From the NCBI RefSeq assembly GCF_000688335.1, contig NZ_JHZX01000001.1:2914001-2978000 (forward strand): a stretch of DNA of 64,000 nt. Direction: 5' to 3'. Positions within the stretch are counted from its first letter, which is position 1. Each line of letters begins with the position of its first letter. Shown piece by piece: positions 11,399-59,264 of this stretch. Made by a program: the position numbers and the translations under genes. The stretch is from Sediminibacter sp. Hel_I_10 (GTDB lineage Bacteria; Bacteroidota; Bacteroidia; Flavobacteriales; Flavobacteriaceae). The notes under the pieces are model-generated. The model was given only the letters and a program-made list of their open reading frames with translations. It was not told the origin of the DNA and searched no databases.

Positions 11399-12748
11399 AT
11401 GTCAAACGACATTAAAATTAAAAAAGGTCTGAATATAAATCTTGTTGGTGAAGCTGAAAAGTCGCTTGAAGAAGCCATTGTCAGTAACTTCTGCACCATA
11501 AGACCTGAAGATTTCCATAGCGTTACCCCTAAACTCGTTGCAAAAGAAAATACAAGCCTTAAAGCAGGTGATGTAGTTTTTTACGATAAAAACCATGAGG
11601 AGGTGAAATTTGTTTCACCAGTTTCGGGTACAGTAGTGGAAATTGTAAGAGGACCAAAACGTCGTATTGACGCTATAAAAATACAAGCAGACAAAGAGCA
11701 AACATTTAAGGATTTTGGTAAGTTCGATATGAACTCAGATGCCGATACTTTAAAAGCACATCTTTTAGCGTCTGGTTGCTGGCCATTCATCATCCAAAGA
11801 CCTTATGATGTTATTGCAGATCCTGCAAGAACACCAAAAGCTATCTTTATTTCGGGTTATGATTCTGCGCCATTAGCAGCAGATTTAGACTTTGTACTTA
11901 AAGGGAAAGAAGCACAATTACAAGCGGCTGTTTCTGCATTGTCAAAATTAACAAAAGGGAAGGTGCATGTTGGTGTCAACGCCAATACGTCTCCATTGTC
12001 TGGTTTAAATGATGTTACTGTGCATAAGGTCTCAGGACCACACCCTTCAGGAAATGTGGGGACGCACATTAACAAAATAAGCCCAATCAACAAAGGAGAA
12101 ACAGTTTGGACCATAAGTGCTGCTGACTTAGTGATTATTGGTGAATTGCTGTTAACAGGGAAATTTAATGCAGAACGTGTTGTGGCCTTGGCAGGATCTT
12201 CAGTTAAAAAGCCAAGATATTTCAAAACCAGAATAGGAAGTGAAGTGTCTACCATGGTTTATGATAATGGGGTTGAAAAAGGTGGTAATGACCGTATCAT
12301 TTCTGGAAACGTGCTTTCTGGTAAACAAGTGAAGCCAGATGGAAGTTTGGGTTACTATGCAACATTGATCTCTGTGATCCCAGAAGGTGACGATTATGAG
12401 TTCTTTGGTTGGAATAAACCAGTATTTGATAAGATTTCATCAACAAGGGCTCTGACCTTTTCTTGGATGAATCCTAATAAAAAATATGATCTAGATACCA
12501 ATACAAACGGAGAACATCGCGCATTTGTGGTGACGGGAAGTTATGAGGAAGTATTTCCTTTGGATATCTTTCCTATGCAGATTCTTAAAGCGTGCATGTA
12601 TGAGGATTTAGATGAAATGGAAGCCTTGGGAATGTACGAGGTAGCTCCAGAAGATTTTGCCTTAACAGAATTTATCTGTGTATCTAAGCAGCCTCATCAA
12701 GAGATTATTAGAAAAGGCTTAGATCTCATGTTAAAGGAAATAGGATAA
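11399..12748 (+). CDS. nqrA: Na+-translocating NADH:quinone reductase subunit A
   Basis: This is the cytoplasmic-side subunit of the sodium-pumping NADH:quinone oxidoreductase. It carries no covalent cofactor and has been linked to quinone binding at the interface with NqrB. The 449 residues have the family start (IKIKKGLNINLVGEAE), a barrel-sandwich hybrid domain near the N-terminus (FVSPVSGTVVEIVRGPKRR), and the HVGVNANTSPLSGL and HPSGNVGTHI segments typical of NqrA. It is the first gene of a six-gene operon, 57 bases ahead of nqrB. Confidence 0.97.
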   Translation: MSNDIKIKKGLNINLVGEAEKSLEEAIVSNFCTIRPEDFHSVTPKLVAKENTSLKAGDVVFYDKNHEEVKFVSPVSGTVVEIVRGPKRRIDAIKIQADKEQTFKDFGKFDMNSDADTLKAHLLASGCWPFIIQRPYDVIADPARTPKAIFISGYDSAPLAADLDFVLKGKEAQLQAAVSALSKLTKGKVHVGVNANTSPLSGLNDVTVHKVSGPHPSGNVGTHINKISPINKGETVWTISAADLVIIGELLLTGKFNAERVVALAGSSVKKPRYFKTRIGSEVSTMVYDNGVEKGGNDRIISGNVLSGKQVKPDGSLGYYATLISVIPEGDDYEFFGWNKPVFDKISSTRALTFSWMNPNKKYDLDTNTNGEHRAFVVTGSYEEVFPLDIFPMQILKACMYEDLDEMEALGMYEVAPEDFALTEFICVSKQPHQEIIRKGLDLMLKEIG

Positions 12749-12805
12749 CATACAACCCATATACTCGGTTTTTCAACAATCCCTAACTGCAAACAGTTAT
12801 AAAAA

Positions 12806-14029
12806 ATGAGCTTAAAAAGTAAATTACACGAAATAAAGAAGAAGTACGAAGGTAAGAAAATGGCACCTGCGTTTAATGCCTTGCATACTTTTTTGTACAC
12901 GCCTAATGAGACTACCCATAACGGGACTCATATTAAGGCTGTAGATGATTTAAAGCGTACCATGAACACGGTGATCATTGCTTTGGTGCCATGTTTGATT
13001 TTTGGTATGTTCAATGCGGGTTACCAACATTATTTAGCACTTGGTGAGATTGAGTCGGCAAATGGTTTTTTAGGATCTAGCTTCTGGACCTTAGATAACT
13101 TGGTTGTTGGTCTTTGGACGGTTCTACCATTGGTCATTGTATCTTATGGTGTAGGTTTAGCTGTAGAATTTGTATTTGCAGTTATCAAAGGCCATGAAGT
13201 TGAAGAAGGATATTTGGTTACAGGTATGTTAGTGCCTTTAATTGTTCCTGTTGACATTCCACTTTGGATGTTAGCTGTTGCTGTTATTTTTGGTGTTGTT
13301 ATTGGTAAAGAGGTTTTTGGTGGTACAGGAATGAATATTCTAAATCCAGCATTAACTATTCGTGCCTTCTTATTCTTTGCATATCCAACTTGGATGTCTG
13401 GTGATAAAGTTTGGGTACACGGTGCCGTAGAACGAGATAATATGATTGCAGCGGGTCAAAACTTAGATGCTATTTCAGGAGAAACCATCTTAGGGACCTA
13501 TGCGCAAAGTCAGGAAGTAGCCTACAGCTATGCCGATATGTTTTTTGGTTTGATACCAGGATCGGTGGGTGAGACCTCTAAATTATTGATCATTATTGGG
13601 GCGTTATTCTTGATCTTTACAAAAATTGCGAGTTGGAGAATTATTGTAAGTGCTTTAGCGGGAGCTTTAGTTATGGGACTTATCTTTAATGGCGTTGTAG
13701 ATGCCGGATGGATTGGTGAAAGCAGTAAATTCTTTGGATTAATGAGCGTTCCATTTTGGCAACACCTAATTATAGGAAGTATTCTATTTGGAGCAGTTTA
13801 CATGGCAACAGATCCTGTAACATCTTCTCAAACCAATAAAGGTAAATACATCTACGGGTTCTTAATTGGTTTCCTATCTATTATGATCCGTGTATTTAAT
13901 CCTGCATATCCAGAAGGTGTATTCTTAGCCATTTTGTTAATGAATGTCTTTGCACCAACAATTGATCATTATGTTGTTCAAGCCAATGTTAAGAAACGTA
14001 GAAAACGTTTAAAAATGGTAAACGCCTAA
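12806..14029 (+). CDS. nqrB: Na+-translocating NADH:quinone reductase subunit B
   Basis: This is the large membrane subunit that binds riboflavin and a covalent FMN and forms the sodium path. The 407 residues contain about ten membrane helices and the conserved FGGTGMNILNPALTIRAFLFFAYP region (residues 171-194). The FMN threonine is expected in an S/T-G-A-T motif after an aspartate. Here the corresponding stretch is DAISGET (221-227), with Glu where Ala is usual, so T227 is the likely attachment site but the motif is atypical. ApbE, encoded at 19.8 kb, would attach the flavin. Confidence 0.96.
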   Translation: MSLKSKLHEIKKKYEGKKMAPAFNALHTFLYTPNETTHNGTHIKAVDDLKRTMNTVIIALVPCLIFGMFNAGYQHYLALGEIESANGFLGSSFWTLDNLVVGLWTVLPLVIVSYGVGLAVEFVFAVIKGHEVEEGYLVTGMLVPLIVPVDIPLWMLAVAVIFGVVIGKEVFGGTGMNILNPALTIRAFLFFAYPTWMSGDKVWVHGAVERDNMIAAGQNLDAISGETILGTYAQSQEVAYSYADMFFGLIPGSVGETSKLLIIIGALFLIFTKIASWRIIVSALAGALVMGLIFNGVVDAGWIGESSKFFGLMSVPFWQHLIIGSILFGAVYMATDPVTSSQTNKGKYIYGFLIGFLSIMIRVFNPAYPEGVFLAILLMNVFAPTIDHYVVQANVKKRRKRLKMVNA

Positions 14030-14068
14030 TCTATTAGCTTGAATTAGTAGTTATATAAAACTCAAATC

Positions 14069-14866
14069 ATGGAAAAGAAAACAGATAAAAATTTATATAC
14101 CGTCATATTTGCCGTTGTTATGGTATTGGTGGTTGGTTCGCTATTAGCATTTACAGCGTCCTCTTTAAAGCCTGCAATTAGCGAGAATGAGCGTATTGAG
14201 AAGCAGCAAAACATTCTTTATGCAATGGGCTATAATCAAAATGAAGAGACCACAATTGAATTTATCTCTACCGATAAAGTAGCAGAAATGTTCAAGACTA
14301 AAGTGAAAGATCAACTGGTTTTAGAATATCAAGACGGTAAGATCATAAGCAAGCAAACCAGACAAGAATATATGGATGCCAATGACGGGCAAGAGCCATA
14401 TTTGATTGATGTTAAAAAACAACAAGCAGAGGCCAAAAAAGGAAATCCTAGAAAGCTGCCCTTGTTTATAGGTGAAAACGAAGGAAAAACTTATTATGTG
14501 GCACCTATTTACGGTAAAGGACTGTGGGACGCTATTTGGGGATTTATAGCCGTTGATGAAGACATGATTGTTAGAGGTACATTCTTTGATCATGCCGGTG
14601 AAACTCCAGGACTTGGTGCAAATATTAAGCAACGTTATTTTATGGACGATTTCTACGGAGAGCATTTATTGACCTCAAATGGCGTATTTAAAGGTATTAA
14701 TGTTGCGAAGGGTAATAATGATCCTAAAAACGAAAGAAAAACAGATTATAAAGTTGATGCCCTTGCAGGTGCTACTATTACTGGTGATGGTGTATCGGCA
14801 ATGATCAAAGCAGATATGGGATTATATGTGCCTTATTTTAAGAACTTAAAAAACGAAACTAACTAA
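14069..14866 (+). CDS. nqrC: Na+-translocating NADH:quinone reductase subunit C
   Basis: This 265-residue subunit has one N-terminal membrane helix (residues about 11-32) and a periplasmic FMN-binding domain. The flavinylation motif DALAGAT is intact at 230-236, making T236 the FMN attachment residue. GKGLWDAIWGFIAVD and HAGETPGLGA are family-typical strands around the flavin site. It passes electrons from the NqrD/E iron-sulfur centre toward NqrB. The gene sits 39 bases after nqrB and one base before nqrD, so translation with nqrD is probably coupled. Confidence 0.97.
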   Translation: MEKKTDKNLYTVIFAVVMVLVVGSLLAFTASSLKPAISENERIEKQQNILYAMGYNQNEETTIEFISTDKVAEMFKTKVKDQLVLEYQDGKIISKQTRQEYMDANDGQEPYLIDVKKQQAEAKKGNPRKLPLFIGENEGKTYYVAPIYGKGLWDAIWGFIAVDEDMIVRGTFFDHAGETPGLGANIKQRYFMDDFYGEHLLTSNGVFKGINVAKGNNDPKNERKTDYKVDALAGATITGDGVSAMIKADMGLYVPYFKNLKNETN

Positions 14867-14867
14867 G

Positions 14868-15512
14868 ATGGGAATACTTTCAAAAAAGGATAGTAAGTTA
14901 ATTACAGATCCATTAGCAGATAATAATCCAATTACCATCCAGGTATTGGGAATTTGTTCCGCATTGGCCATTACAGCAGAGCTAAAAGCATCTTTAGTAA
15001 TGGGTATTGCCGTAATGTTTGTATTAGGTGTAGGTAACGTAGTGATCTCTCTTATGCGAAACATCATACCTTCAAAAATTAGAATTATCGTACAACTTAT
15101 TGTTGTGGCGGCGCTCGTAATTATTGTAGATCAGGTGTTGAAGGCTTATGCTTATGAATTGAGTAAAACACTTTCAGTATTTGTAGGTTTGATTATTACC
15201 AACTGTATCATCATGGGGCGTTTTGAAGCCTTTGCATTAGGTAACGGACCTTGGAGATCGTTTTTGGATGGTATTGGTAATGCTGCAGGTTATGCACTTA
15301 TCTTGGTTGCGGTTGGCTTCTTTAGAGAACTTTTAGGATCTGGAACATTGTTCGGGTATCCTGTTTTGGGAGATGCCATTGAAAAAACGGGAGTGTATTC
15401 TATCGGTTATGAGAATAATGGATTTATGTTGATGCCACCAATGGCATTGATTATTGTTGGACTTATTATTTGGGCACAACGTAGTAGAAATAAGGATTTA
15501 ATTGAAGATTAA
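14868..15512 (+). CDS. nqrD: Na+-translocating NADH:quinone reductase subunit D
   Basis: This 214-residue integral membrane subunit has about six helices. With NqrE it holds the intramembrane 2Fe-2S centre; the two conserved cysteines are visible as C30 (VLGICSALA) and C113 (ITNCIIMGR), matching the ligand positions known in the Vibrio enzyme. The ALGNGPWRSFLDGIGNA loop is a family signature. It starts one base after the nqrC stop. Confidence 0.97.
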   Translation: MGILSKKDSKLITDPLADNNPITIQVLGICSALAITAELKASLVMGIAVMFVLGVGNVVISLMRNIIPSKIRIIVQLIVVAALVIIVDQVLKAYAYELSKTLSVFVGLIITNCIIMGRFEAFALGNGPWRSFLDGIGNAAGYALILVAVGFFRELLGSGTLFGYPVLGDAIEKTGVYSIGYENNGFMLMPPMALIIVGLIIWAQRSRNKDLIED

Positions 15513-15578
15513 TTAAAATAAAATAAACTTTCGGGGTGATGGTAACATATAACTTCGGAAACTTTAAATAATAAAACA

Positions 15579-16313
15579 ATGATAGAACACATTGAACTTT
15601 TTTTCAAGTCCATTTTTATCGATAACATGGTTTTCGCCGTGTTCTTGGGGATGTGCTCGTACTTAGCTGTTTCTAAAAAAGTATCTACAGCAGTAGGACT
15701 TGGAGCAGCCGTTATTTTTGTATTGGCGATTACAGTACCGTTAAACTGGTTATTAGATGTTTATATTCTTCAACCTGGAGCCTTAAAGTGGACAGGTGTT
15801 GAAGGTACGGCCGAACTAGATTTAAGCTTTTTATCTTTCATCATGTTTATTGCGACTATTGCAACCATGGTACAATTGGTAGAAATTGTAGTTGAGAAAT
15901 TTTCACCATCACTTTACAACTCTCTGGGTATCTTTTTACCCCTTATTGCTGTAAACTGTGCAATTCTTGGTGGATCATTATTTATGCAATCTCGTGAGAT
16001 TCCTACATTTGGCTTAGCCTTAAATTATGGTATCTCTTCAGGAATTGGTTGGTTTTTAGCAATTTTAGCCATTGCTGCCATTCGTGAAAAAATTAGATAT
16101 AGTAATGTTCCGGGACCATTAAGAGGCCTAGGGATTACGTTTATCATTACAGGTTTAATGGGAATTGGTTTCTTAAGTTTTGGTGGTATGTTAACCGGTG
16201 GAGATGAAGAAGCTGCAGAAGAAACTCAAGAACAAGTTGAAATTCAAGAACCAATGGAGCAATCAACTGATGAGCATAAAGAATTAGCCGATAATACTAA
16301 AACAATCCAGTGA
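15579..16313 (+). CDS. nqrE: Na+-translocating NADH:quinone reductase subunit E, extended C-terminus
   Basis: This membrane subunit is the inverted-topology partner of NqrD. C26 (FLGMCSYLA) and C127 (AVNCAILGG) are the expected 2Fe-2S ligands. The core of about 206 residues matches the family. It is followed by a hydrophilic tail (about 207-244) rich in Glu, Gln and Thr that the proteobacterial subunit, near 200 residues, does not have. The stop overlaps the GTG start of nqrF by four bases. The tail would face the aqueous side after the last helix; its role is unknown. Confidence 0.95.
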
Positions 16314-17626
16314 TCATGATGTTAGCAATAGAAGGAACATTAGGAACCGTATTAGCAACCGTAGCAGCGTTTTTATTGATTACGTTGATATTGATTAGTT
16401 TGCTATTGTTCGTAAAGCAAAAATTATCACCATCTGGTCCTGTGACCATCAAAATTAATGGTGAGAAAGAAATTGAAGTAGCCTCTGGTGGTACCTTGTT
16501 ATCTACTTTAGGAGGAAACAAAATATTTTTACCATCTGCTTGTGGTGGTGGTGGTACTTGTATTCAATGTGAATGTCACGTTCTTTCTGGCGGAGGTGAA
16601 GCACTTCCAACAGAAACCCCGCATTTCAGCAGAAAAGAATTGAAAGACGGTGCTAGACTTTCTTGTCAGGTAAAAGTGAAGCAGGATATGGAAATCACCA
16701 TTCCTGAAGAAGTATTCGGAATTAAAAAATGGGAAGCAACCGTTGTAAGAAATTATAATGTGGCTTCTTTCATTAAAGAGTTTGTTGTTGAGATCCCTGA
16801 AGATATGGGTTACAGAGCTGGTGGATATATTCAAATCGAAATTCCACCATGTGAAGTGAAGTTTGAAGATATGGATATCACTGCGCACCCAGAGGAGCAT
16901 GAAACACCTGATAAATTTCAAGCAGAGTGGGATAAATTTAAATTATGGCCTTTGGTAATGAAAAACTCAGAGACTGTAGAAAGAGCTTATTCTATGGCTT
17001 CTTACCCAGCAGAAGGACGTGAGATTATGTTGAACGTTCGTATTGCAACTCCTCCATTTGATAGAGCTAAAGGCGATTGGATGTCTGTTAATCCTGGTAT
17101 TGCCTCTTCTTATATTTTCAATCAGAAAAAAGGAGATAAAGTGACTATTTCAGGTCCTTATGGTGAATTTTTTATCAATGAGTCTGAAGCTGAAATGTTA
17201 TATGTTGGTGGTGGAGCAGGAATGGCGCCAATGCGCTCACACTTGTATGAGTTGTTCAGAACTCTTAAAACGGGTCGTAAAGTATCGTATTGGTATGGTG
17301 GACGTTCTAAACGTGAGTTGTTCTATTTAGAGCATTTTAGAGCTTTGGAAAAAGATTTTCCAAACTTTAAATTCTATTTAGCACTATCTGAACCTATGGA
17401 AGAAGATAACTGGAAAGTTAAAGAGGACATCGATGCACCTGGAGACGGTTTTGTTGGGTTTATTCACAACTGTGTTATTGATAATTACTTGAGCAAACAC
17501 GACGCTCCTGAGGATATTGAATTGTATTTCTGTGGACCACCATTGATGAACCAGGCGGTTCAAAAAATGGGTGAAGATTATGGAATCCCAGATGAGAATA
17601 TCAGATTTGATGATTTTGGTGGATAA
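16310..17626 (+). CDS. nqrF: Na+-translocating NADH:quinone reductase subunit F
   Basis: This is the entry subunit that oxidises NADH. It has one N-terminal membrane helix (about 9-35), a 2Fe-2S ferredoxin domain with C78, C84, C87 and C119 as ligands, then an FAD domain (RAYSMASYP) and an NADH domain ([14 protein letters not shown] and the C-terminal YFCGPPLMN). The GTG at 16310 overlaps the nqrE stop in a GTGA arrangement; the ATG at 16316 is an alternative start two codons later. It is the last gene of the operon and is followed by a terminator. Confidence 0.97.
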
Positions 17627-17732: not shown

Positions 17733-18176
17733 TTAGACTAACTCATATTTAGGCTGGTTATTTTCTACCTCAAAGAGTTTGGTGTAATCCATAACGTTCG
17801 GGATGTGATCTAACTTACATAAGTAAGCTACTACGGCACATAACCCATTAAATAGATTGTCTGTTTGAGTTGGATCTTTAGGCTTTTTACAGTAGCGATC
17901 AATAGGTCCAGAATAGCCGCAACCTTTCAAGAATTCAGCTTCAATCTGCAGCAACTCAAGTGGCGTATAACCGTGAATGCGTTTTCCAAAATTTTGATTA
18001 ACTAAACCCACGTAATTGAGCTTAACAGAGCCATGAACATCTGTAAGGTGCTTCCATGTATCGGTATTATCACAAATATTACCAACAGCACATTTTTTAC
18101 AGCATTCAGGGTGTAATTCGTTATTGTGAAAGGCCTTATACAGTTTAGTTAAGGCGTTGTTCAGGCGCGTTGTCAT
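17733..18176 (-). CDS. Cys-rich cytosolic protein next to nqr, unknown
   Basis: This 147-residue protein has no signal or membrane segment. It has eight cysteines: C25, C26, C29 and C35 form a compact CCxxCx5C cluster, followed by C86, C96, C113 and C120. This suggests a bound metal or iron-sulfur cluster. It lies tail to tail with the nqr operon, and I recall similar proteins at this place in other Flavobacteriaceae, which suggests a link with NQR or its iron-sulfur centres. It has no ferredoxin, FAD or NADH domain, so it is not an NQR catalytic subunit. The function is not known. Confidence 0.8.
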   Translation of the reverse strand: MTTRLNNALTKLYKAFHNNELHPECCKKCAVGNICDNTDTWKHLTDVHGSVKLNYVGLVNQNFGKRIHGYTPLELLQIEAEFLKGCGYSGPIDRYCKKPKDPTQTDNLFNGLCAVVAYLCKLDHIPNVMDYTKLFEVENNQPKYELV

Positions 18177-19379: not shown

Positions 19380-19387
19380 TACTTTTG
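19380..19387 (+). promoter_or_regulatory. Promoter -7 box upstream of the 125-residue gene and apbE
   Basis: TACTTTTG matches TAnnTTTG. A TTG start at 19385 would lie inside this box, so the ATG at 19424 is the better start for the gene that follows. Confidence 0.6.
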
Positions 19388-19423
19388 TTGAAATTAAAAG
19401 TCTACCGCTCCTGCGGAAATGAA

Positions 19424-19801
19424 ATGAGTAAAGCCCTTTCCAAACAAGAACTTCATAACCTTGCCATGAACCATGTTGGTAAGGACCTAGAATCTCGAGG
19501 TTTTGAATTTATTGCCATTAACAGTAAACTTAAAAGACATCCTCAATTTGTGTGTACCGATAAGAACAATCAATATTTCTTTGTGATTGTGCGGGCAGTG
19601 ATTCTTCCAGAAAACCCAAATAACTATGATATGGTGTGGATGGAAACTTTTAAAAAGCACGCCTTTGAAAAAGATGCTAAAGTACTCTATGCCGGCGTTG
19701 GCCTAGGAAATCCCAATGGCGAAAGTCTTCCTGTTTTTTTAAATGAAGAATACCTTATCGAATATAACGGCATTCAAGTTATTGAGCCCAATTTAAACTA
19801 A
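19424..19801 (+). CDS. Conserved 125-residue protein co-transcribed with apbE, unknown
   Basis: This cytosolic alpha/beta protein has no signal peptide. It begins MSKALSKQELHNLAMN and contains GFEFIAINSKLKRHPQFVC and YFFVIVRAVILPENP. The start at 19424 follows the promoter box at 19380-19387; the frame is open to a TTG at 19385, which overlaps that box. The stop is one base before the apbE start, so the two are probably translated together. I recall this as a conserved flavobacterial family, but its function is unknown. The neighbourhood suggests a role near flavin transfer or NQR. Confidence 0.8.
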   Translation: MSKALSKQELHNLAMNHVGKDLESRGFEFIAINSKLKRHPQFVCTDKNNQYFFVIVRAVILPENPNNYDMVWMETFKKHAFEKDAKVLYAGVGLGNPNGESLPVFLNEEYLIEYNGIQVIEPNLN

Positions 19802-19802
19802 G

Positions 19803-20828
19803 ATGATTATGGCGACCTCTAAATTTCAATGCATACCATTTTGCAATACCATCAGTAAGATTTCGGTTTTGCTTTTACTATTAGTGTTCTTCAGCTCATG
19901 CAGTAAAGAACCTAAGAATACGCAGCTGGCTGGGCCTGTGTTTGGCACTTCTTATTCCATTATTTATGATGCAGAGGCAGATTTTACAAAGCAATTTGAT
20001 AGTCTGTTTACAGTCATTAATCAATCAATGTCCACCTATATTCCAAATTCTGACATTTCCAAAATAAACCGAAATGAGCCGGTCTCCATTGATACGCATT
20101 TTGAAAAGGTCTTCTTAAAATCTAAGGAGATTTACAAAGAAACCAACGCCATATTTGATCCCACTATAGGAGATGTTGTAAATGCTTGGAAGTTTGGAGC
20201 CGAGAATGGAAAGTTTTTAACCGATAGTACCACTATAGATAGTTTAATGCGTTTTGTTGGCTTTGATAAGGTCAGCTTAAAAAATGGAGAAATTGTTAAG
20301 CCTACGGAAACCTATCTTGAGTTTAATGCTATTGCTAAAGGCTATGGGGTTGATGTCATCTCTGAGTTTCTAGAAGCGCATGCCATCCAAAACTATTTGG
20401 TAGAAATAGGCGGCGAAATTCGTGTCAAGGGCTTTAATGTAGAAAAACAAGAAGCTTGGCGTGTTGGTCTAGATGAACCGAGATTTGATGGAGAGCAATC
20501 TATTTTTAAGGCCATTTCATTAAAAAATGAAGCCATGGCAACATCAGGTACGTATCGTAAATTTAAAGTAGATAGCAGTGGTAATCGTTATGCCCATATT
20601 ATTAATACCAAAACAGGTTATCCTACAAAAACCAATATTTTAAGTGTATCTGTTATTGCAAAAGATTGTATGACTGCAGATGGATACGCCACCGCTTTTC
20701 AAGCCATGGGAAATGGAGCGGTTGAGCAATTCTCGGAAATTCACCCGGAATTAAAAATTTATATCATCTATGAGAATGAAGCGCAAGAATTGCAAACCTT
20801 GAATTTGAATAATTTTCCTGAGAACTAA
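19803..20828 (+). CDS. apbE: FAD:protein FMN transferase ApbE, lipoprotein
   Basis: This enzyme moves the FMN part of FAD onto a threonine of target proteins such as NqrB, NqrC and RnfG-type subunits, on the periplasmic side. The N-terminal hydrophobic segment ends in a lipobox (FFSSC, Cys33), so the protein is lipid-anchored. Motifs visible are STYIPNSDISKIN, FDPTIGDVVNAW, FNAIAKGYGVD, VEIGGEIRVKG, MATSGTYRKF and HIINTKTGYP. The Mg-binding region reads DCMTADGYATAFQAMG. An ATG two codons downstream (19809) is also possible. Its place 2.2 kb from nqrF fits its role on NqrB and NqrC. Confidence 0.95.
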   Translation: MIMATSKFQCIPFCNTISKISVLLLLLVFFSSCSKEPKNTQLAGPVFGTSYSIIYDAEADFTKQFDSLFTVINQSMSTYIPNSDISKINRNEPVSIDTHFEKVFLKSKEIYKETNAIFDPTIGDVVNAWKFGAENGKFLTDSTTIDSLMRFVGFDKVSLKNGEIVKPTETYLEFNAIAKGYGVDVISEFLEAHAIQNYLVEIGGEIRVKGFNVEKQEAWRVGLDEPRFDGEQSIFKAISLKNEAMATSGTYRKFKVDSSGNRYAHIINTKTGYPTKTNILSVSVIAKDCMTADGYATAFQAMGNGAVEQFSEIHPELKIYIIYENEAQELQTLNLNNFPEN

Positions 20829-54748: not shown

Positions 54749-55963
54749 CTATATAATGGTCATGAGATACCAAAGGCTAAAACCAATGAGAAAAAGGATG
54801 CCAAGCCAACTCCAAATGTGCATTAATTGAGACGGTCTCCACTCTAAAGGTGTATGCTTGCTGCAAATAAGTTTGTAATTGATGATGGCGTAGAATGGTG
54901 CTGTAAGAAAGGATAATATCGTTGCAATTTCTATGAGCAATCCCATTTCCGAAGCAAAAAAGAAATAAATCAAAATCGTGCCCATAATAAGGACCATGAT
55001 CCAAAACACATAAGACGTTTTAATCAGGTTGCTAAAGAGTAAATCTGTGGTTTTGTGCATGGCTCTTGGTGAGGCGTCTAATGTGGTCAAGGTGGTGCTG
55101 AACATTGTTGTAAACGCGGCAATACCAATAATGATGTAGGCCCAATCCCCAAGATTTTTGGTATACATGTTTAAGAGTTGATCAGAAAACTCACTTGCTT
55201 TTGAACTAAAATCTGCGCCTGTTTGAAACATGACGAGTGCCCCAAGTGAAATAAAGCCCAGACCAATAATGACGGTAAAGAGGTAACCAATATTAAAATC
55301 GAAGAGGCTTGATTTTGTAGTAAAATCGTTGTTCCCTTTTTGTTTTTCAATAGCCCAAATAGAGTGCCAGATCGAGATATCAAGAGGCGCTGGCATCCAA
55401 CCCATAAAAGCAATAAGAAAACCAACTTGTGCGACCTCAGGTAAAACTTGAGTAAAAACAATACTTTTAGTTTGATTCTGAAAGGCAACAACTACAGCAA
55501 TAATAGTACTTATGGTAAGTGTAATGATTATGATTTTCATCAACTTATCAAGAAATTGATAGCGGCCTTTTAGAAGAATAATCAGGCAAATGGCCAATAT
55601 GATTACGGTCCAAATTTCTATGGAAATAAAGCCTCCAAAAATAGAGGTCGCTAAGCCTGCAGTAACTATTGTAACGGCTGTTTGAATGGTAAACATCGTG
55701 GCAAAAGTGATAATGAAATAAGCTATTAGGACACCCTTACCTAATTTGCGATAGCCGTCCAAAAGTGTTTCTCCTGTAGCGAGTGCATATCTGGGCCCAA
55801 ATTGAAAAAAAGGATATTTTAAGAGATGCGCTAATGCTAAGGCCCAAAGTAAGCCAAAACCAAAATCGGCACCTGCCCTTGTAGATTGAACCAAATGAGA
55901 AACCCCTATAGCAGCTCCAGCAAATAGGAGTCCTGGTCCCAGTTTCTTTAAGTCGATTTTCAT
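54749..55963 (-). CDS. Nramp-family-like transporter without the canonical metal motifs
   Basis: This 404-residue membrane protein has about eleven helices and the Nramp fold. The first helix begins GPGLLFAG as in Nramp proteins. In true Nramp proteins DPGN follows in helix 1 and MPH in helix 6. Here the positions read GVSH (20-23) and MPAP (190-193), so the known Mn2+/Fe2+ ligands are absent. Other Nramp-related groups move Mg2+ or Al3+ or have unknown substrates. It is the last gene of the unit 57.8-54.7 kb and overlaps the sigma factor stop by four bases. Confidence 0.82.
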   Translation of the reverse strand: MKIDLKKLGPGLLFAGAAIGVSHLVQSTRAGADFGFGLLWALALAHLLKYPFFQFGPRYALATGETLLDGYRKLGKGVLIAYFIITFATMFTIQTAVTIVTAGLATSIFGGFISIEIWTVIILAICLIILLKGRYQFLDKLMKIIIITLTISTIIAVVVAFQNQTKSIVFTQVLPEVAQVGFLIAFMGWMPAPLDISIWHSIWAIEKQKGNNDFTTKSSLFDFNIGYLFTVIIGLGFISLGALVMFQTGADFSSKASEFSDQLLNMYTKNLGDWAYIIIGIAAFTTMFSTTLTTLDASPRAMHKTTDLLFSNLIKTSYVFWIMVLIMGTILIYFFFASEMGLLIEIATILSFLTAPFYAIINYKLICSKHTPLEWRPSQLMHIWSWLGILFLIGFSLWYLMTII

Positions 55964-56511
55964 CGGGAAGCGTCAATAATATGGGCCAATAATTTTTTGG
56001 CTCTCAGTAACTTTACTTTAACATTATTGACCGGTTCATTAATTTGATCTGCAATTTCACTATAGCTCAACTCATGAAAATACCGCAGGTTGATGACGTC
56101 TTGGTAATGTGGTTTTAGCTTTTTAATATCTCGCTTAAGTTTTGCAAGATTTTGTTCTGTAATAATCTTATCTTCAGGAGACGGAGAGTCATCTATAATG
56201 CCATGATAATCGTCATCATCATTGGCAGCCGAAGTGCTTACAATTATAGATTTCTTCTTTCGTATTAAATCTATATGTAAGTTTTTTGAAATGGTGATGA
56301 GCCAGGTCTTGAACTCATATTTTGAATTATAGGTATGAATCTTATCAAATGCTTTGGCAAAAGTTTGGATGGTAATATCTTCAGCATCATTTTCATTTTG
56401 GGTTCGCTTTAATTGAAACCCGTAAACATCGTTCCAAAAATGATCGAGCAAAAATTTAAAGGCAATTTGTTCTTTGTTTTTGGCGAGTTCAATAGCTTCG
56501 TTTACTTCCAA
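55960..56511 (-). CDS. ECF-family RNA polymerase sigma factor
   Basis: This 183-residue sigma factor has region 2 (FKFLLDHFWNDVYGFQLK, EDITIQTFAKAFDKIHTYNSKYEFKTWL) and region 4 (INLRYFHELSYSEIADQINEPVNNVKVKLLRAKK). The start is a TTG at 56511, overlapping the glycosyltransferase stop by ten bases; the frame is open further upstream only because it runs through that gene. No anti-sigma gene follows. Its neighbours are a transporter and a glycosyltransferase, so it may control envelope functions. Confidence 0.85.
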   Translation of the reverse strand: MEVNEAIELAKNKEQIAFKFLLDHFWNDVYGFQLKRTQNENDAEDITIQTFAKAFDKIHTYNSKYEFKTWLITISKNLHIDLIRKKKSIIVSTSAANDDDDYHGIIDDSPSPEDKIITEQNLAKLKRDIKKLKPHYQDVINLRYFHELSYSEIADQINEPVNNVKVKLLRAKKLLAHIIDASR

Positions 56512-57617
56512 TGCTGAGGTTTTGAAATAAGATTCTGTATAAAGATAGAAAATTGAAACACAATGAGAAAGAATTCTACTATTGGAAGATACCATAAGAG
56601 GTCTTTTTCCTCTAATGTTTTTGTCGCCGGATATAGAACGCTGTATTGAACAATGAACCTTAACAGGCATAGGGTTAAAACAATTTCCCATTTAAAAGCC
56701 AGTGCGAGTAACGAAATAGCCAAGAGCCAAAACAAAAATTGGGAGATATAAAATAAGACCAGCATTACTTTATGTTTGGTTTTGTAAAAAGCGGCGGTAC
56801 TAATATGTCTTCTTTTTTGGATGCGCCATGATTTAAAGCTTTTTTTTGGAGAAGAGTAAATGAAACTCTCTTTCTCTATGCAAATCGCGGTGTTGGTTTT
56901 TGTGGCCATTTGATTCACAAACAGGTCATCATCTCCAGACTTAATTTTAATATGGTTTATAAACCCATTAGCCTCAAAAAACAAGGATTTCTTATAGGCA
57001 AGATTTCTTCCTACGGCCATATAGGGTTGGCCTATTTTTGCATATGAAAAATACTGCATAGCCGTCATGAAGGTTTCAAACCTTATCAGGATATTTAGAA
57101 AAGAACCTTTTATTTTGTCATAAGGACTATATCCAATAACTAATGTTTTGTCCTGCTCAAATTTGGAGCAGATACTACTTATCCAATGATTTGAACTAGG
57201 TTTACAGTCGGCATCTGTGAATAATAGATGGTCATGGGTTGCTGCTTTAATCCCCAAGGTTAAGGCATATTTTTTATTACCCCAAAAAGCCTCAACGGCT
57301 TTAACATCAACAATCTTGATGTTGTCATGCATTTTTTGAAATGCTTTCATCACCTTAAGTGTGCGGTCTGAGGAGCTGTCATTTATAAGAACAACTTCAA
57401 AATTGCTGTAAGATTGAGATAATATTGCAGGAAGATTTTTGGTTAGATTATCTGCTTCATTTTTTGCACAGATAATTATTGAAACGGGCTGGTTTGATGG
57501 CCGCTGTGATTTTGGTTTAAACCAGGCGAATCTTCCGAAGATAAATATATAATAAGTAAGCTGAATGACTAGAATAGACGTAAAAACGTAAAATAATACG
57601 TCAAGAAAAGTGGACAA
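56502..57617 (-). CDS. Glycosyltransferase family 2 protein, membrane-bound
   Basis: This 371-residue protein has one N-terminal helix (residues about 5-28), a GT2 catalytic domain (VSIIICAKNEADNLTKNLPAIL, VVLINDSSSDRTL, LLFTDADCKPSS with the DxD-like DAD, and later KSGDDDLFVNQ and QKRRH, a QxxRW-like site), then two to three C-terminal helices. This layout is typical of processive or polyprenyl-linked sugar transferases. The donor and product are unknown. It lies three bases after the 67-residue gene. Confidence 0.88.
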   Translation of the reverse strand: MSTFLDVLFYVFTSILVIQLTYYIFIFGRFAWFKPKSQRPSNQPVSIIICAKNEADNLTKNLPAILSQSYSNFEVVLINDSSSDRTLKVMKAFQKMHDNIKIVDVKAVEAFWGNKKYALTLGIKAATHDHLLFTDADCKPSSNHWISSICSKFEQDKTLVIGYSPYDKIKGSFLNILIRFETFMTAMQYFSYAKIGQPYMAVGRNLAYKKSLFFEANGFINHIKIKSGDDDLFVNQMATKTNTAICIEKESFIYSSPKKSFKSWRIQKRRHISTAAFYKTKHKVMLVLFYISQFLFWLLAISLLALAFKWEIVLTLCLLRFIVQYSVLYPATKTLEEKDLLWYLPIVEFFLIVFQFSIFIQNLISKPQHWK

Positions 57618-57620
57618 CGC

Positions 57621-57824
57621 CTATGAGTGTTGAGGTTCGTTACAGTTTTCGAATTGTTCAGGACTTTTGCCGCAGAAGCCACAAGCATCACCATTTTTAT
57701 TGAGCATTGGGTTCTGGCTTGCACAAGTACCGGCAAATTTGCCATCTTTTTTTGCCCAAATTTTTATAGCAATTCCGGCAACTCCTAAACCTAAAAGGAT
57801 TAAGGTGATTAAAACGAGTTTCAT
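57621..57824 (-). CDS. Small membrane protein with four Cys, NqrM-like
   Basis: This 67-residue protein has one N-terminal membrane helix (residues 2-22) and a short tail with C34, C48, C51 and C61 (FAGTCAS, ACGFCGKSPEQFENC). The plan and the GTC/CxxC pattern match NqrM (DUF539), a small membrane protein needed for the iron-sulfur centre of NQR in Vibrio. Flavobacterial copies are commonly called membrane or secreted protein. The ATG at 57824 is chosen because it begins the helix. It leads the unit with the glycosyltransferase and is preceded by a promoter box. The NqrM assignment is my inference. Confidence 0.72.
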   Translation of the reverse strand: MKLVLITLILLGLGVAGIAIKIWAKKDGKFAGTCASQNPMLNKNGDACGFCGKSPEQFENCNEPQHS

Positions 57825-57840: not shown

Positions 57841-57848
57841 CAAAGATA
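57841..57848 (-). promoter_or_regulatory. Promoter -7 box of the NqrM-like gene
   Basis: TATCTTTG on the minus strand, 17 bases before the ATG at 57824. Confidence 0.55.
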
Positions 57849-57864: not shown

Positions 57865-57898
57865 AAAAGCCATTTTTGAATTTTCAAAAATGGCTTTT
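57865..57898 (-). terminator. Intrinsic terminator of the anti-sigma gene
   Basis: The stem aaaagccatttttga/tcaaaaatggctttt with a four-base loop is followed by a T run on the minus strand. Confidence 0.8.
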
Positions 57899-57917: not shown

Positions 57918-58721
57918 TTAGTTGTTTTTGCTTTTCAATTCTATTTCTGCTACCGCACTATCACCACTGCTGTTTTTAGCATTTTTTGGTTCTATAGTGA
58001 TACTCAATCCCAGAGCATCTTCCATATAAGGAAGGGATTGCATCTTTTTTTCTGAGGGATCTAAAATTCCCAAGCTCACAAAATGATCTTCCATTTCTGC
58101 CCAAATGTGATAATCTTCATTATCTGAAATTTGAGGTAAGGTCACCACATCAATCATAGAAGTTCTTTCTACTGGATTAATGTAAGCAACCGTTTTAAGA
58201 TCTTTAGCACGGCCATTACCTCTCATGACATATTTCTCAGTTTCTGGATCGTTAAGATCGTCAAACTGACGCATCACTTCATTCAATATTTTATTGTTTT
58301 GATCAATGTCATTTCTTAAATCAAAAATCTCATCAACCACAACTTGGTTTTCTTCAAGTAAGCTCTTATTTCTTTCATATAACATATAAGATGATCCAGC
58401 AAATAACATTGCTACTAAGCTAGCAGCAATAGCAAACCAAGGTGTTCTTCTGTTGCTTGTCTTTTCAGCAAGGTTAATCACAGGAGTTTCTTCACTATTA
58501 ATCGCAGCTTTTATATTGTCTAGAATAAAAAGAGGCGCTTCAGCAGCGTTAGATTTTGCAATAATCTCCAAGTTATTTTGTAAGTCTTGGTAAGCCGAGT
58601 CAACCTCAGTATAAAGTTCAATGTAGGATTCGATTTTCAAATCCTCAACACTAGAAGTGTCTCCCTTAACGTAGCGCTCTAAGAGATCTGTTTCTAAAAA
58701 TTTACGTACTTTTTCTTCCAT
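57918..58721 (-). CDS. Anti-sigma factor, RskA-like
   Basis: This 267-residue membrane protein has a cytosolic N-terminus with the anti-sigma zinc-free motif (LLERYVKGDTSSVEDLKIE), one membrane helix (residues about 93-112, WFAIAASLVAMLFAGSSYML), a coiled coil (115-150) and a periplasmic RskA-type domain (YHIWAEMEDHFVSLGILDP). It binds the sigma factor encoded just upstream (six bases apart) and releases it under a periplasmic signal. The trigger is unknown. Confidence 0.88.
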   Translation of the reverse strand: MEEKVRKFLETDLLERYVKGDTSSVEDLKIESYIELYTEVDSAYQDLQNNLEIIAKSNAAEAPLFILDNIKAAINSEETPVINLAEKTSNRRTPWFAIAASLVAMLFAGSSYMLYERNKSLLEENQVVVDEIFDLRNDIDQNNKILNEVMRQFDDLNDPETEKYVMRGNGRAKDLKTVAYINPVERTSMIDVVTLPQISDNEDYHIWAEMEDHFVSLGILDPSEKKMQSLPYMEDALGLSITIEPKNAKNSSGDSAVAEIELKSKNN

Positions 58722-58727
58722 TTTATT

Positions 58728-59264
58728 TCAATGTTTTGGGACATAGACCTTCTTCAGTTCTCTAAGTCCAATTTTCAATCTTGATTTGATTGTTCCCAAA
58801 GGTATATCCAATTCATCACTCGCTTCCTGCTGGGTCATGCCTTCAAAAAATAAGGCTTTCAAGACGATTTGGTATTTCTGATCCAATCTTGCAACATGCT
58901 CTTTTAAATCCATGACATCTTGGTTTAAACTTGCTGTTGGTAGGATATATACGTCTGATTTGTCGATTTGGACTTCTTTTTCAAATCTATTATTAAAACT
59001 TCTTAATTTATCGATAGCGGTATTCTTGGCAATACGGTAAAGCCAAGTGAATAATTTTGCTTTTTTGGAGTCGTACTTTTTAGCGTTTTTCCAGACTTTA
59101 ACAAAGGTTTCCTGCAAGGCGTCTTGAGCCAATGCTTCATTAGAAGTGACTTGAAGAATTACACCGTATAAACTGTCTCCATAATATTCATAGAGCAGGT
59201 CTAAGGCTTTTTGATCACCGTTCTCCAGTAATCCGACTATTTTTTTTTCGATTGGGGTGCTCAA
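58728..59264 (-). CDS. ECF-family RNA polymerase sigma factor (SigK-like)
   Basis: This 178-residue sigma factor has region 2 (ALDLLYEYYGDSLYGVILQ, DALQETFVKVWKNAKKYDSKKAKLFTWLYRIAKNTAIDKLR) and region 4 (QKYQIVLKALFFEGMTQQEASDELDIPLGTIKSRLKIGL). It is paired with the RskA-like anti-sigma gene behind it. The upstream 239 bases hold a GTGTCGT pair 11 bases apart on the coding strand, which may be a binding site. No target genes are evident. Confidence 0.92.
   Translation of the reverse strand: MSTPIEKKIVGLLENGDQKALDLLYEYYGDSLYGVILQVTSNEALAQDALQETFVKVWKNAKKYDSKKAKLFTWLYRIAKNTAIDKLRSFNNRFEKEVQIDKSDVYILPTASLNQDVMDLKEHVARLDQKYQIVLKALFFEGMTQQEASDELDIPLGTIKSRLKIGLRELKKVYVPKH

Follow-up and report, generated by a model that had tools for sequence, protein, structure and literature searches.

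The window, a stretch of 64,000 nucleotides from the genome of Sediminibacter sp. Hel_I_10, contains a complete nqrABCDEF operon (11399..17626, plus strand), the presumed client of the protein considered here. The ligands of the [2Fe-2S] cluster of NqrD and NqrE (as in PMC10739449) are present in this genome as NqrD Cys30 and Cys113 and NqrE Cys26 and Cys127. Insertion of this intramembranous cluster seems to depend on NqrM, which is predicted to deliver Fe to NqrD/E (PMC12174285, PMC6209661). The gene for the other NQR maturation factor, the FMN transferase ApbE (PF02424), lies at 19803..20828 on the plus strand, immediately preceded by a gene for a 138-amino-acid protein without a Pfam family (19385-19801, plus strand). 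Next to nqrF is the convergent gene of a Cys-rich protein of 147 amino acids with no Pfam match (17733..18176, minus strand). As the preliminary description had claimed, no NqrM-like gene follows nqrF in the window, and a search of the organism's own genome with PF04400 (NqrM) gave no match.

The candidate for a Bacteroidota-type NqrM is encoded at 57621..57824 on the minus strand, precisely where the preliminary description had placed it. Its translation, MKLVLITLILLGLGVAGIAIKIWAKKDGKFAGTCASQNPMLNKNGDACGFCGKSPEQFENCNEPQHS, has 67 residues and the features first described for it, a helix followed by a Cys tail with GTC and CGFC. A single N-terminal transmembrane helix (residues 2-24) leads into a basic patch around K21-K29 and then into a tail of the form GTC-x13-CxxC-x9-C, in which the cysteines are Cys34 (GTC), Cys48 and Cys51 (the CxxC, read CGFC), and Cys61. 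AlphaFold models the helix at high pLDDT and the tail as loosely defined (pLDDT of about 60), and the tail model is uninformative as to metal geometry. The gene heads a co-directional unit on the minus strand: 3 bp separate its stop codon from a GT2 glycosyltransferase gene directly downstream (56502..57617), which is followed by an ECF sigma factor gene (55960..56691) and by a gene for an Nramp-family divalent-metal transporter (PF01566; 54749..55963). GT2 is the neighbor in 43 of the 53 Flavobacteriaceae loci read, the sigma factor occurs in matching order at L104, L111, and L112, and the transporter does so in L104. Bacteroidota promoters have the -7 consensus TAnnTTTG, and reading of the sequence gives a weak candidate -7 element matching it, TATCTTTG (57841..57848, minus strand), 16 nt before the ATG, with no convincing -33 box at the standard distance. 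A terminator-like inverted repeat, likewise read from the sequence (57866..57898, minus strand), parts this unit from a second ECF sigma/anti-sigma pair upstream (57918-59264). The earlier account of a unit led by this gene and holding a glycosyltransferase and a sigma factor stands for the genes downstream and is amended by the second pair beyond the repeat.

The open reading frame is a genuine and strongly conserved gene. It was found in 59 of 60 Flavobacteriaceae genomes, at 58 to 91% identity and with no stops, and in all 52 of those of good quality; the sole genome without it (G058) is 80% complete. One flavobacterial genome (G440) has two family copies (C4:344867 and C2:499278) and one nqrD. 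Cys34, Cys48, Cys51, and Cys61 are invariant in an alignment of 18 flavobacterial members, and across the phylum the pattern G[TS]C-x12,13-C-x1,2-C-x2,13-C is kept in 87/87 family sequences, of which the independent evidence is the last two cysteines, as the sequences were chosen by the first part of the pattern. The window protein has the N-terminal transmembrane helix and the short tail with four conserved cysteines, the first in G-x-C, that are expected of an NqrM. A Pfam and NCBIfam scan of the 67-residue protein returned nothing better than chance, and a tblastn search of plasmids gave no match.

The question of whether this family is related to NqrM (DUF539, PF04400) of Vibrio and Klebsiella has different answers for single sequences and for profiles. 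Comparison of single sequences with NqrM was suggestive only. PF04400 matched neither the protein nor 28 family members and found nothing over its cut-off in 29 further Bacteroidota genomes; when every family member was scanned with NCBIfam and Pfam, the matches were weak and none was to NqrM. Because PF04400 misses the protein outright, these databases leave it unnamed. The PF04400 match by which the preliminary description had proposed to judge its claim thus fails for single sequences, whereas profile-profile comparison and the retrieval of NqrM succeed. When a diverse Bacteroidota alignment of 28 sequences (A2) was compared by hhalign with eight proteobacterial NqrM sequences (A3), the probability was 94.9% (E 4.4e-8), and against 88 NqrM sequences it was 95.3%. 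Shuffling of all columns, of both blocks, or of the helix block (100 shuffles each) never reached the real score (0/300; best, 33.4 versus 43.5), whereas with shuffling of the tail only, the mean score dropped to 36.6 and 3/100 shuffles reached it. The profile match is therefore specific but is carried mainly by the helix and basic patch, to which the tail adds a modest part; given this small share of the score, the case does not rest on the cysteine alignment alone. An HMM built from A2, and hence free of proteobacterial sequences, was run against 9,649 stop-to-stop open reading frames from proteobacterial nqr loci and ranked 88/88 NqrM sequences above the first of the 9,561 others (best decoy E, 1); these decoys, being open reading frames around nqr and not all small Cys-rich membrane proteins, make a fair but not exhaustive set.

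The two families have in common a single N-terminal helix, a basic patch, G[S/T]C, a Cys pair, and one more cysteine. The window protein reads GTCASxxP where NqrM reads GSCGGL, and it is without a PF04400 match. Its Cys pair is CxxC as in Ruegeria NqrM (P0003), which has the same cysteine plan as the window family, whereas the pair is CxC in the Gammaproteobacteria. A contig titled Chryseobacterium sp. 18061 (L184) carries an enterobacterial-type nqrM that scores like that of Citrobacter sp. 18056 (L185), and this assembly is probably mislabeled or contaminated.

The distribution of the family was assessed across the phylum, since NQR is saturated in the Flavobacteriaceae (60/60) and offers no contrast there. 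The sample consisted of 392 Bacteroidota genomes with a completeness of at least 95%, searched with the family profile (A1) and, for nqrD, with TIGR01939 above its cut-off. A1 matched 58 genomes and nqrD was found in 75; 57 genomes had both, 18 had nqrD only, 316 had neither, and a single one (G206) had a family match without nqrD. That match is spurious (E 9.6e-4, partial, two stops, and missed by the broader profile A2) and was set aside, so that the 317 genomes lacking nqrD hold no credible family member. At an E value of 0.01, A2 adds four weak partial matches in nqr-negative genomes, of which three (G413, G318, and G425) have E values of 0.003 to 0.008, are partial, and in one case contain a stop, and the fourth (G419) is a cut relative, described below. 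The association with nqr genes that had been proposed as a check is therefore near perfect in one direction, the family being confined to Na+-NQR genomes. Fisher's test gave a p value of 2e-51, uncorrected for the kinship of the genomes; because the genomes are related, contrasts within groups weigh more. Genus g60 has three genomes with both nqrD and the family gene and at least 20 listed with neither, and families f24, f10, and f30 also hold both states, with the gene and nqrD always in step. No Cys-bearing member was found in the 16 genomes with RNF only (rnfE present, nqrD absent), which ties the association to NQR and not to the RNF/NQR fold in general; a role in RNF assembly was rejected on these grounds.

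The position of the gene differs among lineages. In all 14 loci of distant lineages that span both the operon and the gene (L085-L098), it is next to apbE and closes the nqrABCDEF-apbE cluster, on the same strand as apbE in G103 (the proteobacterial order) and convergent with it, tail to tail, in the other 13. The preliminary description held that nqrM usually follows nqrF; annotated nqrM does so directly in Klebsiella, but in Proteobacteria it is often found after apbE, as in Providencia and Ruegeria. In the window the gene is instead about 40 kb from nqr and does not close the nqr-apbE cluster. Among Flavobacteriaceae pairs on one contig, 25/28 lie within 60 kb of nqrD, a fraction biased upward because draft and short contigs favor near pairs, although several single-contig genomes show the proximity too. 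These one-contig distances are mostly 35 to 54 kb, so the gap in the window is typical of its family: the Flavobacteriaceae have the gene apart from nqr-apbE, at a conserved locus that is generally about 40 kb distant. It is likewise found apart from nqr in families f5, f8, and f19.

The 18 nqr-positive genomes without a typical family member comprised 12 with a third, Cys-rich type, 5 with a Cys-poor relative, and 1 in which nothing was found. The third type belongs to family f17 and was exposed by an A3 search of its loci. It has a CCGGGxC motif and a His-rich Cys tail and is encoded directly after apbE (L121-L123, L214-L225, and L229-L231). Within the sample, its own profile (A4) matched precisely the 12 nqr-positive f17 genomes and none of the nqr-negative ones; one further match, which contains stops, is spurious. 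With the window type it has in common the helix, the basic patch, the Cys tail, and an apbE neighbor in nqrABCDEF-apbE; it differs in the CCGGGxC motif and the His-rich tail. By hhalign, A4 reached 93.7% to NqrM and 70.5% to the window type, and the f17 type may be closer to NqrM proper than the window type is. PF12669 (FeoB_associated) did not match the f17 type above its cut-off (best E, 0.017). In the remaining nqr-positive genome (G300; L120, family f18), nqrF is followed neither by apbE nor by an NqrM-like gene, and an NqrM-like protein was not found elsewhere.

The restriction of both NqrM and the window family to nqr-positive genomes, the adjacency to apbE/nqrF in many deeper Bacteroidota with a slot after apbE in relatives, and the profile homology support the reading originally proposed: the 67-residue protein is very likely a divergent form of NqrM that serves in the maturation of Na+-NQR, with a predicted role in iron delivery. 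Pfam's definition leaves it outside PF04400; its homology, plan, distribution, and position make it the counterpart of NqrM in Bacteroidota. In many genomes the family gene differs from nqrM in facing apbE tail to tail or in lying at a distance from nqr. ApbE is the other dedicated NQR maturation factor and often a neighbor, but it is a flavin transferase and unrelated in sequence. For the iron-delivery role we extrapolate from work on Vibrio and Klebsiella. The helix would be an inner-membrane anchor and the tail would be cytoplasmic, as the basic patch after the helix suggests. The four tail cysteines would be ligands of iron or of an Fe-S precursor and would help to place or stabilize the [2Fe-2S] cluster between NqrD (Cys30 and Cys113) and NqrE (Cys26 and Cys127).

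The Cys-poor relative bears on whether the protein might be a partner of NQR without a role in Fe-S maturation, either a seventh small subunit or an iron-free scaffold stabilizing NqrD/E. It occurs in all five nqr-positive genomes of f11/f12 (G387, G384, G286, G294, and G443; L125-L129), where it keeps the helix and basic patch and one tail cysteine; the GTC and CxxC cysteines are gone, three of the four having been lost (for example, NTHVSGN..GIGCVQSQD). All four NqrD/NqrE cluster ligands are nevertheless conserved in these genomes, and the helix may therefore do work of its own. Against such a partner stand the invariance of the four cysteines in the 87 sequences elsewhere and one cysteine of V. 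harveyi NqrM that was reportedly essential in the 2016 work of Kostyrko, and we consider it unlikely as an account of the window protein. The f11/f12 operon is without apbE behind nqrF, like the Parabacteroides record L062, and a conserved larger open reading frame adjoins the Cys-poor gene at L125-L129. In G419 (L226), an nqr-negative, rnf-positive member of the genus to which G443 belongs, all that is left is a copy cut after ..VKDGRFSC, which looks like a remnant in decay since NQR was lost.

The plan of one helix plus a Cys tail is also that of small proteins of other metal pathways, such as FixS/CcoS-type oxidase factors and the FeoB-associated Cys-rich protein (PF12669), the latter also in an iron context, and the family could in principle be one of these and merely correlate with an aerobic marine lifestyle. 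Some members do match FeoB_associated (best E, 0.099) and FixS (PF03597; best E, 0.014), but weakly, below the cut-offs, and with no such family matched consistently, and the tracking of nqrD inside single genera and families, together with the place beside apbE-nqr in L085-L098, makes this explanation improbable. It is less probable still that the protein serves a cell envelope unit of its locus (the glycosyltransferase and ECF sigma factor, with murB nearby): the GT2 neighbor is conserved in the Flavobacteriaceae, but distant lineages have the gene beside apbE and not GT2, and at least 20 nqr-negative genomes of g60 are without the protein. That the Fe-S factor is instead the 147-amino-acid protein, which is adjacent and convergent to nqrF and has several cysteines, is scarcely credible, as it occurs in 8/16 Flavobacteriaceae nqr-positive genomes and 0/26 others tested and has no apparent transmembrane helix.

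An origin of NQR within Bacteroidota has been proposed (PMC4014512, PMC12174285). We found no link between NqrM and Bacteroidota in the literature consulted, where descriptions of the Fe-S assembly factor come from Proteobacteria. If the Bacteroidota protein is, as seems very probable, a version of NqrM, the machinery of this assembly extends beyond Proteobacteria, and the factor would have been overlooked because the Pfam model ends at the proteobacterial form. We suggest, tentatively and as a possibility that may well prove wrong, that NqrM was born with NQR inside Bacteroidota and has since diverged into four or more forms: a canonical one in Proteobacteria, GTC-CxxC-C, CCGGG, and a Cys-poor one in Bacteroidales-like bacteria. 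In the Cys-poor form, if this is true, the helix alone would be a scaffold, and iron loading by NqrM would be dispensable in some hosts, perhaps those living without oxygen. The variants with and without cysteines are natural test cases for the role of the cysteines. With the window family read as NqrM, the missing Fe-S factor of NQR would have a gene in most nqr-positive Bacteroidota, and heterologous production of their NQR would become testable.
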